Assembly (NCBI GenBank): GCA_025998875.1
Contig: AP024675.1
Span: 1,127,501-1,178,977 of the forward strand
Length of the DNA stretch: 51,477 nt
Reading direction: 5' to 3'
Source: Bacteroidota bacterium
GTDB lineage: Bacteria > Bacteroidota > Rhodothermia > JANXDC01
The notes under the pieces were generated by a model. It searched no databases. It was given only the letters and a program-made list of their open reading frames with translations, and was not told the origin of the DNA. Made by a program: the position numbers and the translations under genes. Of this stretch, positions 30,254 to 36,008 are shown piece after piece (the stretch's first letter is position 1; each line of letters opens with the position of its first letter).

Positions 30254-30440
30254 GTCCCTTGCGGGGAGCGTTTTCGAATCGGTATGCTGCCGGTTGCGGG
30301 CAGAGCAAAGCACCCCGTATGCTTGAGGCATTCGCACGCTCCCTGACCCCGACGATCCGAATGGCCACAGAATCCCGACCCGGACAGAGTTCCCCGGCGT
30401 GGGAAGAAGAGACGCGCGGATCGGGTGCGTATTTTTGGGT

Positions 30441-30899
30441 GTGGAACGCCTGTTCTGGAGCCGATATGCCATCCCTTCCTGGTCGCGGGCCTGGCGCAGT
30501 GCTGCGGAGCGGGCGCTGCGCTGGCTGGGGCCGGCGGGTATGCTGTTTGTGCTGGGATGGGCGTTGGAGGCGCGAATAGAGAAGCCCCTCTGGATTCTGT
30601 TGCTTCTGCTTCCCCCGCTTGTGGGGGGCCTAAGCGCCTGGTGGGAGCTTCTGCGCCGCCCGGCCCGGCTGCGTGTGCGTCCGGGTTGGATGGCTCTCGA
30701 TCGCCAGTGGGATCTGTTGCGCCGCAGGGATAGTCGATTCCGGCGCCTTGTGGGCGTCCGCGAGGGGGCCGAGGGAGAGCTACTCGTATACCTGGAGGGA
30801 GGGGATCAAGAGGTCCTCTATCCGGAGGACTGGCCCGGATGGCGGATGCTGGTGGGCGTGCTCCGACGCTCAGTCCACCTGCGGCCAACGGGCTACTGA
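30441..30899 (+). CDS. Small predicted membrane protein of unknown function
   Basis: The frame is open from a GTG at 30399, with another GTG at 30441 (152 residues from there). No start has a convincing ribosome site. The product has two hydrophobic segments (AGMLFVLGWAL and PLWILLLLLPPLVGG) followed by a basic, strand-rich C-terminal part with tryptophans. Two helices plus a small cytoplasmic domain is a common layout, but I recognise no family. A perfect TATTTTTG box at 30430-30437 lies immediately before the GTG at 30441; if used, the mRNA would be nearly leaderless or the start lies downstream, for instance at ATG 30540. The 3' end overlaps the convergent usher-like gene by 7 nt. Confidence 0.5.
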   Translation: MERLFWSRYAIPSWSRAWRSAAERALRWLGPAGMLFVLGWALEARIEKPLWILLLLLPPLVGGLSAWWELLRRPARLRVRPGWMALDRQWDLLRRRDSRFRRLVGVREGAEGELLVYLEGGDQEVLYPEDWPGWRMLVGVLRRSVHLRPTGY

Positions 30900-33800
30900 A
30901 CGCTGCGGTACAGGGGTTGCCAGGATCCCATGCCCACAGGAATCAGGTAGGCCGTTGAGATGCCGATTCCGGATCGGGCCTTCTCCAGAAGGTGCTCGGC
31001 CTGTTGGCGCTCAGGAAGGGGCTCGGTGAGCACCACGTAGAGGCCCTTTTGAGGGCGGATGTCCACTGCACAGCGCACCCCAAGAGCCCGACCCGCGCGC
31101 TCGGCCAGCGCGCGGGCCGATTCGAGCCGCCGGAAGGCGCCCAGCGCCACGGAGAATCCGTAGACCATCTGGGCCCGTTCAAGCCGGATACCAAAAGCCT
31201 CCAGGGCGTGATCCCGTAGCGTACGCAGGCCGGCTTCCAGCTCCTGCCGGGACCAGAGCGTATCGGTCCAGACCACATACAGGCCGACCTCCGGTCGGGG
31301 CACAACATACAGCCGGCCCGGCCAGTACATACGGATGCTCTCCTGATGGCGTCGGGCCGCTTCCGGGGTGCGGAAGGAGCCCAGCTGGATGACAAAGGGC
31401 TCCCCTTCGAGTTCCCGACGGGGTTGTCCTTCCTGCTCGGAGGCCGCCAGCGGGCGGTTTTCGGGTCGCTGCAGGTCTTGTAGCACCACGTCCACGGTCA
31501 GGAGCTCCCGCTCTGCCGGGTTCAGCTGGAAACGGATGGGCTCTGGATCCCGGATGCCGAGCCAGCTCAGCTGCTCCGCATCCGGCTTTAACTCATAGGT
31601 GCCCCGGGGCAGGCCCTCCAGGTACAGGTACCCATCGTGGAAGGTGGTCACGGTTTGCTGGAAATCACCCTCCAGCCGGCGCACGTGCACGATAAGCCCG
31701 GGCAGGGTGCGCCTCCGGCCATCGCGCTCCAACCAGACCTGCCCCTGCAGGATGGCTGTCGGCTGAAAAGGAATGCGAACGGGAAGCAGTACCTCGGGCA
31801 GGGGCACAAGGGCTGTATCCCCGGAGGGCCGGTAATGGGGCAGGCCGGGACTGACGGCTTCAATCCGGTAGACCGTATACGGAGCAAGCCCCTTAATCAG
31901 CGGATCGGAGCGCACCTGCTGGCCATGAAGCCGAAGCTGGATCTGCAGATCGTCAACCAGTGCTTCGTCCCGGTCCCGGCGGCCATTGCTGTTTTCGTCC
32001 TGAAAGCCCTCTATTCGGAATCCGCCTCCCCCCACGCTCTCCCCCAGCCAGATCCCGGATCCCGGCATCCAGGCAAAGGAGCCAGAGAGGCTCATTTGCA
32101 TGTGGTTCCACTGCCGCAGGGTGCTGGCGTTGTTCTGGGCCTGCGCCCAGAGGCGGGCTATGGAGCCGAGGGGGAGGGCCAGCTGTAGCCCTGCCTGCCA
32201 GGTCCGGGTACCGGGCAGGCGCCCCAGATAGGCGTATATCTGTCCGGAGCGCAACATGGAAAAACCAAGTTGCAGCCGCCAGGATTCTACAGTCCGCTCG
32301 GATACGTTGTAGCGCACCTGGCCAGAAAGTTGCAGGCTCCGGAAGGCGTGCAGGAATACTTGGCCCTCCAGCGAGCGGCCGAAAAGCCCACCCGATAGGG
32401 GCCATCGTCTTCGTTCCTGGTAGAAGAACTGCCCCGAAAGGCCGGGAAGGCTTATGAACAGGCCCGGACTGGCCAGCACGTAACCCTGCTGGGAAAAGTG
32501 CACATACGAGGCCGCCGCGCGGGGGCTGAGGTTCACCCGGCCCAGCCGAAACGGAAAAGAGGCCAAAAGCGAAGCATACCGCTGCTCCAGCCGGGTGGGA
32601 TACGGCCAGGAGCGCAGGTCCCGCTGAGCGAGCAGGCTCAGGTTGCCTCCGCGGGAGGAGTTCACCTGCAGGCTAATCAGATAGCGAAACGGCCAGAGGA
32701 CCTCGGCCTGCAGGGCGCCGTAGGCGCCAAGTCCGGCCCCCAGCGCGCCCCAATAGGCGCGGGAAAGCGGGGCTCCATCCGGAGTCCAGCTCTGCACTCC
32801 GCCGGCCTGCAGGGTGAGATCGGGCAGGAGGCCGAAGGCGACCCGCCCCCCGAGGAGGCGTTCTGAGCCCGACAGGCGTTCCCCGGCCCAGAGCTCATAG
32901 CGCAGCGCCCGGAAGGGAACCAGCTGATAGGGGATCGTGCGCCTCCAGCGCTCCTCGATCTGCGTCCCCGTGGGGGTGATCGCCCGGAGTTCCAGCTCAT
33001 TATGGCCAACCAGCAGCGGTATCCGAAGCAGCAGACGGCCATCGTCCGGCACGCGGATTCGGCCCACCAGGACGCGGTTCTGATAGAGCTCGACCAGTGT
33101 GCCCGGAGGCCAGAGCCGTTCTTCGGTGACCCATCCCCGGTTCTGCTCCGGATACGGAGGCTCATTGCGCAGATGGAGGCCGCGCAGTTGCGCCCCCGGA
33201 ATCCAGAAGACGGATGTCTGGCCGATGGTGAGCTGACGCATCCAGGGGTTTGTGCCGATCCAGCGCCACTGCCAGCCGGAGAGGACGGGCTCGATCACGG
33301 CTCCGTAGCTGCCGTAGAGTATTCCCTCTAGATCCAGCTCGCCTCCGGCAAGAAGCATCCGTGTGCGCCAGCTGATCTGTAGATGCGAGGAGCCCGTAGC
33401 GAATCGCCCCCAGCTCACCGTGTACTGCGTCACCCCAGGGTAGAGCAGTAAACGGGGTATGGACCGGGCGGCTTCTTGTTGCGGCAGCACAGCTGTCCAG
33501 TTTAATTCCCTCTCTTGCAGTCCCGCGGCCTGCGCCCTCAGGAAGACGGGCGGCTGTGGGCCCAGGGGGATGAAGTGCAACCGCAGGCGAGCCGTATCGA
33601 GCTGTATGCGGGCCTCAAGCAGGGCCTCCAGCGCCGCCGTGGGGGCGAACACCTCCTCGGCTTTCCGGATCCAGGACCCGAAGGGGGCCAGATCCAGCAA
33701 ACCGCGCCAGGTCTCCGCGCGCCTGCGATCCGGATCCAGACAGAAACGGTAGCGTCGTTCGCCCACCCACCCGCACCAGCTGCCCTCCGGCGTCTGTGCG

Positions 33801-33994
33801 GTGGAAATGCCGAGCGCCTCCAGGAATTCCCTGACCGGCAGGTAGAGCTTGGCCCCCTCCAGCAGGGCTATCAGCACCGGCGCCTCCCCTCCGGGCACCT
33901 CCAGCTCCAGGGGTACTTCCTGGGGCGGGGAGGGGTGCTGTCCCCGGCCCTGAAGGGCAAAAAGCAGCCATAGCAGGCAGGCGAGGATCCTCAT
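30893..33994 (-). CDS. Usher-like outer-membrane protein with SdrD-like motif and two C-terminal SPOR repeats
   Basis: The 1033-residue protein starts with a signal peptide (LLWLLFALQG). Residues 25-110 hold a small domain with LYLPVREFLEALG. Around residues 298-350 lies a segment strongly like the usher middle/plug domain: VELYQNRVLVGRIRVPDDG, IPLLVGHNELEL and PTGTQIEER. Residues 350-650 are amphipathic strands consistent with a large barrel. Then FQDENSNGRRDRDE (Asp666 to Glu677) is a SdrD-type calcium motif, followed by carboxypeptidase-regulatory-like beta domains. Two SPOR-like repeats (about 866-932 and 944-1018, each with a GSF or GAF motif and a GLYVV strand) end the protein. Ushers thread fimbrial subunits across the outer membrane; SPOR domains bind glycan strands stripped of peptides. 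The start overlaps the chaperone stop by 4 nt. Confidence 0.7.
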   Translation of the reverse strand: MRILACLLWLLFALQGRGQHPSPPQEVPLELEVPGGEAPVLIALLEGAKLYLPVREFLEALGISTAQTPEGSWCGWVGERRYRFCLDPDRRRAETWRGLLDLAPFGSWIRKAEEVFAPTAALEALLEARIQLDTARLRLHFIPLGPQPPVFLRAQAAGLQERELNWTAVLPQQEAARSIPRLLLYPGVTQYTVSWGRFATGSSHLQISWRTRMLLAGGELDLEGILYGSYGAVIEPVLSGWQWRWIGTNPWMRQLTIGQTSVFWIPGAQLRGLHLRNEPPYPEQNRGWVTEERLWPPGTLVELYQNRVLVGRIRVPDDGRLLLRIPLLVGHNELELRAITPTGTQIEERWRRTIPYQLVPFRALRYELWAGERLSGSERLLGGRVAFGLLPDLTLQAGGVQSWTPDGAPLSRAYWGALGAGLGAYGALQAEVLWPFRYLISLQVNSSRGGNLSLLAQRDLRSWPYPTRLEQRYASLLASFPFRLGRVNLSPRAAASYVHFSQQGYVLASPGLFISLPGLSGQFFYQERRRWPLSGGLFGRSLEGQVFLHAFRSLQLSGQVRYNVSERTVESWRLQLGFSMLRSGQIYAYLGRLPGTRTWQAGLQLALPLGSIARLWAQAQNNASTLRQWNHMQMSLSGSFAWMPGSGIWLGESVGGGGFRIEGFQDENSNGRRDRDEALVDDLQIQLRLHGQQVRSDPLIKGLAPYTVYRIEAVSPGLPHYRPSGDTALVPLPEVLLPVRIPFQPTAILQGQVWLERDGRRRTLPGLIVHVRRLEGDFQQTVTTFHDGYLYLEGLPRGTYELKPDAEQLSWLGIRDPEPIRFQLNPAERELLTVDVVLQDLQRPENRPLAASEQEGQPRRELEGEPFVIQLGSFRTPEAARRHQESIRMYWPGRLYVVPRPEVGLYVVWTDTLWSRQELEAGLRTLRDHALEAFGIRLERAQMVYGFSVALGAFRRLESARALAERAGRALGVRCAVDIRPQKGLYVVLTEPLPERQQAEHLLEKARSGIGISTAYLIPVGMGSWQPLYRSVQ

Positions 33995-34821
33995 CCGGGT
34001 ACGCGCACGGAGAGCCGTTCCTGTACGGGCCGAAACGGGATGAGCTTCGTCGTCTCGAGATCGGGCCGCTCGGGAAGGTATTCGACCTCCAGCGCATAGG
34101 TCCCGGCGGGCAGTTGCCTGCGCGGCAGAAGCCAGATCCGGATCAGGCTCCCGTACAGGGGCACGTATTCCTGTCCCTCAGCAACCAGGGTTCCATCCGG
34201 CCGCCGGAGTCGGTATCGGAGCGTGCCCAGCGCCGGGATCTCGTCCTGCGTGCGCAGACGCAGGCGCACCAGTATGGAATCGGAGCGCGCCCACAGGTCA
34301 ACCCCCTCCAAAAAAGGGCGGGCCTCAACGGAGCCATGCCGTAAGTAGACGACTATGTTCTGCCTGCCGATGATCTGCGCCTGAAGCTCCTGGTCCTCCA
34401 GCGTGGTCAGGGGCCGCGGTGGCGGGGTACCCTGCACGGTAAGGCGCGTCCAGTACACCCCAGGCGGGGCTCCGGCGGGCAACCGGGCAAGCAGGCGCAC
34501 AGTCTGGCTCTGAGCAGGCCCGAGCCGGAAGCGCTGAGGGAAGTAGCGCAGATACGGGGTAAGATTCCAGCGGCCGAAAGGGGATTTCGAGAGTGGATTC
34601 GGATACAGGATCGAAAGCACGCCCAGGGAATCCGTGATCGGATATCCGAATGCAAGCTCGAGCACGACCTCCATGGGCGCATCTCCTCCGTTGCGCACCT
34701 CCAGCACCCCAGCTCCGGTCCGCGCATCCAGCGCCCCGGCCAGGGGATAGACGCTGAGCTGGGCCCAGGCTCCGGAGGCCAGCCCCAGCAGCAGGCCGCA
34801 CATGCCCAGATGACGCATCAT
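33991..34821 (-). CDS. PapD-like periplasmic pilus-assembly chaperone
   Basis: The 276-residue protein has a signal peptide (MCGLLLGLASGAWAQ) and then a beta-rich N-terminal domain of the chaperone type: LSVYPLAGALDA, VLEVRNGGDAPMEVVLEL and RFRLGPAQSQTVRLLARLP. This order, including the N-glycine turn and the P-x-Q-S-Q-T-V-R-L strand, is that of PapD-like two-Ig-domain chaperones. A second strand-rich domain follows. Such chaperones complete the fold of subunits by donor-strand complementation. Start codons at 34821 and 34818 are tandem ATGs behind GGAGGA. An upstream TTG at 34875 is unlikely because the intergenic hairpin would be coding. It is followed by the usher-like gene with a 4-nt overlap. 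Confidence 0.7.
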   Translation of the reverse strand: MMRHLGMCGLLLGLASGAWAQLSVYPLAGALDARTGAGVLEVRNGGDAPMEVVLELAFGYPITDSLGVLSILYPNPLSKSPFGRWNLTPYLRYFPQRFRLGPAQSQTVRLLARLPAGAPPGVYWTRLTVQGTPPPRPLTTLEDQELQAQIIGRQNIVVYLRHGSVEARPFLEGVDLWARSDSILVRLRLRTQDEIPALGTLRYRLRRPDGTLVAEGQEYVPLYGSLIRIWLLPRRQLPAGTYALEVEYLPERPDLETTKLIPFRPVQERLSVRVPG

Positions 34822-34841
34822 CCTGTCCTCCGTATACAAAC

Positions 34842-34869
34842 GCGAAACCCGCCCTGCGGCGGGTTTCGC
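34842..34869 (-). promoter_or_regulatory. Perfect intercistronic hairpin between subunit and chaperone genes
   Basis: A 12-bp perfect stem (GCGAAACCCGCC with GGCGGGTTTCGC) and a 4-nt loop lie between the subunit stop (34897) and the chaperone start (34821). On the minus strand the stem is followed by GTTTGTAT, not a full T-tract. It is better explained as a partial terminator or 3' mRNA stabiliser than as a complete terminator. Confidence 0.8.
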
Positions 34870-34896
34870 ACTCAAAAAACGGACCAGACCGACGGG

Positions 34897-35454
34897 TTAC
34901 GGGATGGTGACCGAGTAGTCGATGGTGAGTATGGGGGTAGAAGAGCCAACCGGACTGGCGGTGTGGTATACCGTCAGAATGCCGCCCAACCATACGAAGA
35001 TGGTATTGGCACCCGTCACGTTGATCTGCCCCCCGTTAGCGGTCGGAAACTGAGGTGGGCTGGTCCCGTAGGAGTTCGAATTGACTCGATACTTAGGTGG
35101 ATAGGGAGTGAAAGAGTACCCGGGTAGGGGACTGTTGTACTGCAGCACAAGCGTAAGGGGACCTGTCCAGGGAGTTGCCGGGCCGGATAAGGTTATCTGA
35201 ATATTGCCTCCCGCTATGTTTGTGTTGTAGGGTTCTGTTGCGGTTCCCCCTGTGGGATAGTAATCCACCGATCCCGAGGTGGGGATCACGATGGGCCCAC
35301 TGGTCGGGCCGAACGGGAAGTTTCCGTGGGTGGTGGAAATGGTAGGGGGAGTAACAGAACCGTTCCCTAGGACCAGGTTAATGGTTCCTCCCTGAGCCCA
35401 TAGGCTATAGCTACAGGCTCCGAGCAGGAGGACGGTGAGCAGGGCGCGCTTCAT
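34897..35454 (-). CDS. Small secreted beta-sandwich protein, candidate fimbrial subunit (DUF4402-like)
   Basis: The 185-residue protein starts at ATG 35454 after GGAGGG; a GTG at 35469 is also in frame. The signal peptide is LLTVLLLGACSYSLWAQ; LGAC could also serve as a lipobox, so lipidation is possible. The mature part is rich in Gly, Pro, Ser, Thr and Tyr. It shows a pattern I associate with DUF4402/spore-coat-U-like subunits: FPFGPTSG, SGSVDYYPTGG, NIQITLSGPAT, a late LGGILTVYH and a final TIDYSVTIP strand. This is weak, pattern-level similarity. Codon use and base composition are visibly AT-richer than the neighbours. Being first in an operon with a chaperone and usher-like gene supports a surface-subunit role. 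Confidence 0.6.
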   Translation of the reverse strand: MKRALLTVLLLGACSYSLWAQGGTINLVLGNGSVTPPTISTTHGNFPFGPTSGPIVIPTSGSVDYYPTGGTATEPYNTNIAGGNIQITLSGPATPWTGPLTLVLQYNSPLPGYSFTPYPPKYRVNSNSYGTSPPQFPTANGGQINVTGANTIFVWLGGILTVYHTASPVGSSTPILTIDYSVTIP

Positions 35455-35591: not shown

Positions 35592-35855
35592 TCAATGTCG
35601 GTGTATCCACTTCCATACGGTTGGGATAGCCACTCCCAGGTGTCGGGCGATGGCCGTTACATTCCATCCCTGCTGGTACAGATCTCGGGCCCGGTGTTTG
35701 AGCGTGGGGGGGTGGTTCGGGCGTTTGGCGTCCGGCAGGAAGCGGTGGTAGCAGCGCCGGCAAAGATAGGACTGTCGGCCCTGTACGGAGCCGTTTTTGA
35801 CCACGCGGTAGCTGGCGCAGTGCGGGCAGGTGGGTCTGCGGAGGGTCTCTTCCAT
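35592..35855 (-). CDS. IS1 InsA-like zinc-ribbon/helix-turn-helix protein (transposase remnant or domesticated regulator)
   Basis: The 87-residue protein matches the layout and length of IS1 InsA (91 residues). An N-terminal zinc ribbon has CPHCASYRVVKNG and YLCRRCYHRF (four cysteines in two CxxC pairs), and a helix-turn-helix follows (DLYQQGWNVTAIARHLGVAIPTVWKWI). In IS1, InsA binds the terminal repeats and a -1 frameshift extends it into InsB, the DDE transposase. Here only about 60-140 AT-rich nt remain before the subunit promoter, and the -1 frame shows no InsB-like sequence. So this is either a remnant or an independent DNA-binding protein. It lies directly upstream of the subunit operon in the same orientation. 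Confidence 0.72.
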   Translation of the reverse strand: MEETLRRPTCPHCASYRVVKNGSVQGRQSYLCRRCYHRFLPDAKRPNHPPTLKHRARDLYQQGWNVTAIARHLGVAIPTVWKWIHRH

Positions 35856-36008
35856 CGGGAGCGGCTTTTCTCTCCGAGCTAAACAGCAAAGCTCAAGGAT
35901 CATTCCGGCGCCCGATGCGGCCGTCTGGCGCTTCGGGGGCCTCTTTTCTGGCGGATCGTTCTCACAGGGAGACCCAGTTCGGGTTTCAGCAAGAGGGTTC
36001 ATCCTGCG

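Follow-up and report, generated by a model that had tools for sequence, protein, structure and literature searches.

Within a 51,477-nucleotide stretch of a Bacteroidota genome (Rhodothermia, JANXDC01; assembly GCA_025998875.1, contig AP024675.1, positions 1,127,501 to 1,178,977; hereafter the window, in whose own numbering all positions are given), three consecutive genes very likely encode a divergent chaperone-usher system, whose usher ends in two SPOR domains that most likely hold the pore on peptidoglycan. Chaperone-usher systems assemble fibres on the cell surface. In the mechanism we propose, a PapD-like chaperone would bring a small beta-sandwich subunit of DUF4402-like type to the outer-membrane usher, the usher would polymerise or secrete this subunit onto the surface, and its periplasmic two-SPOR tail would hold it on the peptidoglycan. 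The window usher belongs to a widespread family, in which the SPOR tail is repeatedly exchanged for a TPR tail associated with ion-motor genes, and this exchange is more surprising than the SPOR tail of the window itself. The host genome consists of one contig of 2.35 Mb with a single copy each of the usher and the subunit.

Judged by its predicted structure, the 1033-residue product of the third gene is an outer-membrane usher barrel with a plug. Its AlphaFold model was built from a 42-row alignment of the window sequence and sequences from named genomes, and when this model was compared with the PDB by Foldseek, the first 17 matches were all FimD or PapC (E-values 1e-28 to 6e-13), whereas the best non-usher appeared at 3e-8 and porins from 4e-7. 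Profile comparison by hhalign also aligned the family with a FimD-like profile (probability 91.5, E-value 8.8e-7), over 217 collinear columns covering the early barrel and the plug. The usable profile on the FimD side comprised five ushers, and searches against the single sequences of FimD, EcpC, FimC and EcpB gave no usable result. The plug block that the original prediction had read from the sequence is the part aligned with the FimD plug, and its residues E302, Y304, G330 and G343 are invariant across the family.

Several observations weigh against this assignment and would suit a different outer-membrane barrel, porin- or autotransporter-like, with the PapD-like protein serving something else. 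The usher model is of moderate confidence (predicted local distance difference test, pLDDT, 68.4; predicted TM-score, pTM, 0.49) and its TM-scores are low, about 0.2–0.5; the Pfam Usher profile (PF00577) matches neither the window usher nor anything in its own genome; the N- and C-terminal domains have no profile similarity to their FimD counterparts by hhalign; and the C-terminal domains resemble SdrD and the regulatory domains of adhesins. Nevertheless, the best E-value of an usher in the Foldseek search lies some 20 orders of magnitude below that of the best porin, the plug alignment is collinear, and the conserved neighbours are a PapD-fold protein and DUF4402 genes. Even at a pLDDT of 68, the present model matches ushers and already speaks against a non-usher barrel, which we regard as highly improbable. 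Among relatives, PF00577 gives weak matches in three of 33 (best 3e-4), and Pfam and NCBIfam fail to recognise this branch of ushers. An NCBIfam scan gave nothing useful, and Pfam matches neither the chaperone nor the subunit of the window.

The chaperone is, according to a good AlphaFold model (pLDDT 89.9), a protein of PapD fold, as the original prediction had proposed. Its Foldseek matches are led by WxLIP (1e-10), followed by Caf1M, SafB, DraB, CsuC, EcpB, FimC and other pilus chaperones (3e-8 to 1e-6), without an unrelated family coming forward, and the chaperones of relatives match PapD_N in 12 of 34 cases. Two residues of the chaperone cleft weigh against the proposed system, for in the alignment the position of Arg8 is occupied by Ala in the window chaperone (and by Asn in most Balneolaceae), and that of Lys112 by Thr, where most relatives have Lys. 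A neighbouring Arg is invariant in the chaperone family. The leading structural match is the WxLIP of Enterococcus faecium, and WxLIP_PGBD also matches 13 of the 34 relatives, a hint that PapD-type chaperones and WxL-interacting proteins are akin.

The first gene encodes a secreted beta-sandwich protein of 184 residues with a signal peptide, which agrees with the initial reading of the sequence. Upstream of the chaperone in relatives lie one or more small secreted proteins, many of which match DUF4402 (PF14352) with E-values of up to 1e-32. The window subunit itself has no PF14352 match, a further point against the proposed system, and aligns with the DUF4402 proteins of relatives at 10–23%. 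By its position and this alignment it is a putative divergent DUF4402-like member, and it may be the component from which fibres are formed.

The three genes lie on the same strand at the expected positions, and their order recurs well beyond the window. Of 198 searched genomes of the phylum, 38 had relatives of the usher, and named genomes, when scanned, contributed 53 usher loci, mostly from Balneolaceae, with some from Bacteroidales and others; a single-protein search of genome contigs found no close relatives. As the broad family alignment was too divergent for patterns, a narrower alignment was used. The chaperone adjoins the usher in 63 of the 64 distinct relatives with enough upstream sequence, overlapping it by four bases in 26 of these 63, so the co-occurrence on which the original prediction depended is confirmed by the neighbourhoods. 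Plasmids of Polaromonas and Sphingopyxis carry genes for a DUF4402 protein, a chaperone and an usher-like protein in the same order, the middle gene being called a fimbrial or molecular chaperone by PGAP (Prokaryotic Genome Annotation Pipeline) and the usher, of about 896 residues, being annotated as ‘carboxypeptidase regulatory-like’. The base family is present in Pseudomonadota too, as DUF4402, chaperone and ‘carboxypeptidase regulatory-like’ genes, and the gene order, recurring across the phylum and in Pseudomonadota, is not a product of chance. Two usher frames (L037:5893-10494 and L062:4904-9088) have about 590 extra N-terminal residues and are possibly fusions. Three loci from metagenome-assembled genomes of soda-lake sediment, labelled as an archaeon, Nitriliruptoraceae and Thioalkalivibrio (L076, L083 and L094), cluster with Bacteroidota and look like mis-binned contigs.

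The original prediction had considered the whole region behind the barrel an unusual tail, comprising a calcium motif, regulatory-like beta domains and two SPOR repeats. Only the SPOR repeats are a real addition. In the model, the calcium loop (D-E-N-S-N-G-R-R-D at residues 666–674, with D666 invariant in 42 family members) and the following beta domains, in which Pfam finds weak SdrD_B and CarboxypepD_reg matches at residues 758–804, follow immediately on the final strand of the barrel, at the site that the C-terminal domains CTD1 and CTD2 occupy in FimD and PapC. Since they occupy this place and are also kept in tail-less relatives, they are not extra.

The SPOR repeats, in contrast, are matched confidently by Pfam in two stretches (PF05036, E-value 9.8e-10, 39.1 bits against a cut-off of 21), and they stand at the end of the usher, as originally read. 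Because both ends of an usher barrel face the periplasm, a tail placed after the usher C-terminal domains should be periplasmic, if the barrel is that of an usher. In RlpA, the SPOR domain contacts glycan through Q270, F274 and R309, and SPOR domains recognise denuded glycan (PMC6895207). In the family SPOR alignment, the first repeat of the window usher has the Gln and the Phe, whereas the second has the Phe only, and an Arg matching R309 is not evident in either. The missing Gln and Arg weigh against a wall anchor, and glycan binding by the tail, as read from these residues, is likely but not certain. Recruitment of the usher to division sites would follow only if denuded glycan is the ligand.

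The SPOR tail is not the local oddity it had first appeared to be. The common usher core occurs in three states: without a tail, with a TPR tail of about 113–134 residues, or with one to five SPORs within 121–676 residues. SPOR tails occur in about 30 distinct members, and an usher-like protein of Pseudoalteromonas, encoded in the same gene order, likewise ends in a SPOR; this breadth makes them a recurrent feature and no peculiarity of the window. In a tree built from the cores, tail types change repeatedly between close relatives; the tree was a quick one without bootstrap, and the deep placement of the window usher is unsure owing to its long branch. In L039, L047, L059 and L113, the linkers between core and SPOR are long and rich in Asp, Thr and Pro.

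One may argue that the SPOR repeats are not a wall anchor, but a divergent fold serving protein-protein contacts in the periplasm, or that they are decaying. The absence of the key Gln from the second repeat, the incomplete basic patch, and the wide variation of SPOR number and spacing in relatives (one to five copies, linkers up to about 430 residues) would fit such an explanation. Yet the SPOR score is well over the cut-off, the first repeat retains QxGSF, and many distinct lineages, another phylum included, have kept SPOR tails. Moreover, in the motor loci described below the SPORs stand on MotB, behind the OmpA peptidoglycan domain (three of them in 11 Balneolaceae loci, none in the more divergent locus L078). 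A role other than wall attachment is therefore unlikely, and we favour the two-SPOR tail as a peptidoglycan anchor.

The TPR-tailed ushers add a second dimension to this family. Downstream of them lie genes for an about 615-residue FliF/FliG-like membrane protein, a TPR lipoprotein, MotA and MotB, so that MotA/PomA, MotB and FliG types are all represented. In the three examples examined, the about 615-residue protein matches the middle and C-terminal domains of FliG (E-values about 1e-9 to 1e-11), preceded by a FliF-like stretch (PF08345, 1.8e-4 to 0.06). When motor genes were scored as a FliF/FliG-like or MotA match downstream of the usher, they followed all 20 testable TPR-tailed ushers and none of the 43 other loci (distinct cores), and on the core tree the eight independent contrasts between TPR tail and motor genes all pointed the same way (sign test p 0.008). 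In the phylum sample, a FliG-type gene stands at the usher locus in 14 genomes, the very ones whose usher there has a TPR tail, and in 11 of these a full-strength FliG match is missing; the motor genes beside these ushers are thus apparently not flagellar. Motor loci with TPR-tailed ushers are L070:6923-14855, L088, L085, L093, L097, L103, L104, L112, L117, L120, L086 and L078. The TPR tail of the L070 usher is 46% identical to its own TPR lipoprotein over 78 residues (E-value 3e-19).

A motor operon without an usher also occurs alone in several of these genomes. Such operons (L142:7847-12904, L143:7631-12687, L145:5679-10711 and L144:4656-9902) contain genes for the FliF/FliG-like protein, a secreted protein of about 360 residues, a TPR lipoprotein, MotA and MotB. 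Near the window usher no motor genes were found, and the MotB and FliG of the host are encoded away from it, FliG in an apparently flagellar cluster.

The association of TPR tails with motor genes, the SPOR-bearing MotB and the resemblance of a TPR tail to the motor lipoprotein suggest that the usher tail is a coupling part. It is probably a periplasmic coupling module in general, by which SPOR would tie the usher to the wall in the window and TPR would tie it to an ion motor, and might transmit its force, in relatives. Whether the tail is a true plug-in, anchored to the wall by SPOR in the window and docked through TPR on an ion-driven FliF/FliG-MotA/MotB motor of its own operon in Balneolaceae and relatives, seems to us evenly balanced.

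We found just one more genome from this genus, that of a sister species (L031:6696-11248), and its subunit, chaperone and usher genes all carry frameshifts, while five neighbouring genes are intact. This counts against a functional system and suggests that it is dispensable in the genus, or dying in the sister species, unless the assembly is at fault. It could even mean that the cluster is being lost throughout the genus, the intact window frames being a recent remnant of a system no longer made. However, the coding sequence of the three window genes, about 4.4 kb, is uninterrupted and canonically spaced, and the sister genome is a draft whose frameshifts may partly be assembly errors. Loss of the system in the window genome is thus quite unlikely. 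The features of the cluster are collected in Table 1.

Table 1. Features of the chaperone-usher cluster, in window positions
Feature	Position	Strand	Basis
Putative fibre subunit, 184 residues, signal peptide, beta-sandwich, divergent DUF4402-like	34897..35451	-	Gene position, alignment
Periplasmic PapD-like chaperone (predicted), 276 residues from ATG	33991..34821	-	AlphaFold, Foldseek, PapD_N in relatives
ATGA, overlap of chaperone stop and usher start	33991..33994	-	Sequence; -4 spacing in 26/63 distinct relatives
Usher (predicted), 1033 residues	30893..33994	-	Foldseek, hhalign
Usher N-terminal domain, residues about 25-145	33560..33922	-	Model secondary structure; FimD N-terminal domain unmatched by sequence
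Beta-barrel with inserted plug, residues about 188-665	32000..33433	-	Model strands, Foldseek
Plug block (VELYQNRVLVGRI ... LLVGHNELELRAITPTGTQIEER)	32927..33112	-	hhalign to FimD plug
Calcium-loop motif DENSNGRRDRDE, residues 666-677	31964..31999	-	Sequence
Two C-terminal beta domains, SdrD_B / CarboxypepD_reg-like, residues about 678-840	31475..31963	-	Model, Pfam
SPOR repeat 1, residues 867-935, QxGSF kept	31190..31396	-	Pfam, family SPOR alignment
SPOR repeat 2, residues 943-1012, Ala for Gln of QxGxF	30959..31168	-	Pfam best stretch 946-1009, family SPOR alignment

The open frame of the chaperone extends to 34875, past its ATG-based start. On the opposite strand, positions 30399-30899 (+) encode a membrane-like protein of 166 residues, which overlaps the 3' end of the usher gene by seven bases and is kept in the sister species. 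Upstream of the subunit, positions 35592-35882 encode a small InsA-like protein with a zinc ribbon and a helix-turn-helix. It was considered as a regulator of the operon and rejected as a conserved component, being present here in a single copy and unmatched in the sister genome. A phage origin of the cluster was likewise rejected, as a phage match was absent, and an Rfam scan of the window gave no match at gathering thresholds.

To our knowledge, ushers have been regarded as passive outer-membrane platforms that connect with neither the cell wall nor the inner membrane. A large unnamed branch of ushers that repeatedly swaps a SPOR tail of wall-binding type for a TPR tail linked to a motor suggests that fibre platforms may be fastened to peptidoglycan or linked to the proton motive force. 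If true, a TPR-tailed usher and its motor would together form a motor-driven surface machine of chaperone-usher type, apparently undescribed; MotAB/FliG would have a new use, and the question of how surface fibres bear load would arise anew. In the literature, which was covered in part, neither a SPOR-tailed usher nor a chaperone-usher operon with motor genes was found described. Genes that so far bear only the annotation ‘SdrD B-like’ or ‘carboxypeptidase regulatory-like’ receive names through the present assignment.

Compared with known systems, the window cluster is closest to classical chaperone-usher systems (FimC/FimD and PapD/PapC), with which it shares a subunit, a two-domain Ig chaperone, a plugged usher barrel, the gene order and its best Foldseek matches. 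It differs from them in that the Pfam Usher profile is unmatched, the cleft Arg and Lys are lost, the subunit is DUF4402-like, a calcium loop follows the barrel and a SPOR tail is added. The DUF4402 clusters of the Polaromonas and Sphingopyxis plasmids have the same three-gene order and the same usher-core family, but their ushers are shorter and the window usher has two SPORs in addition. The SPOR domain itself is homologous to those of RlpA, FtsN, DedD and DamX; these, however, are lipoproteins or inner-membrane division proteins, whereas the window SPORs are fused to an outer-membrane usher. Some outer-membrane secretins are also anchored to peptidoglycan, through AMIN in PilQ and LysM in TsaP, and in these, too, an added domain ties the outer-membrane pore to the wall, although both pore and anchor are unrelated to those of the window. 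Finally, the MotAB/FliG flagellar motor and the rotary motor of type 9 secretion (PMC9389320, PMC9127263) have kindred motor genes in the relatives of the window usher, but not in the window cluster, whose usher is most likely held by the wall.

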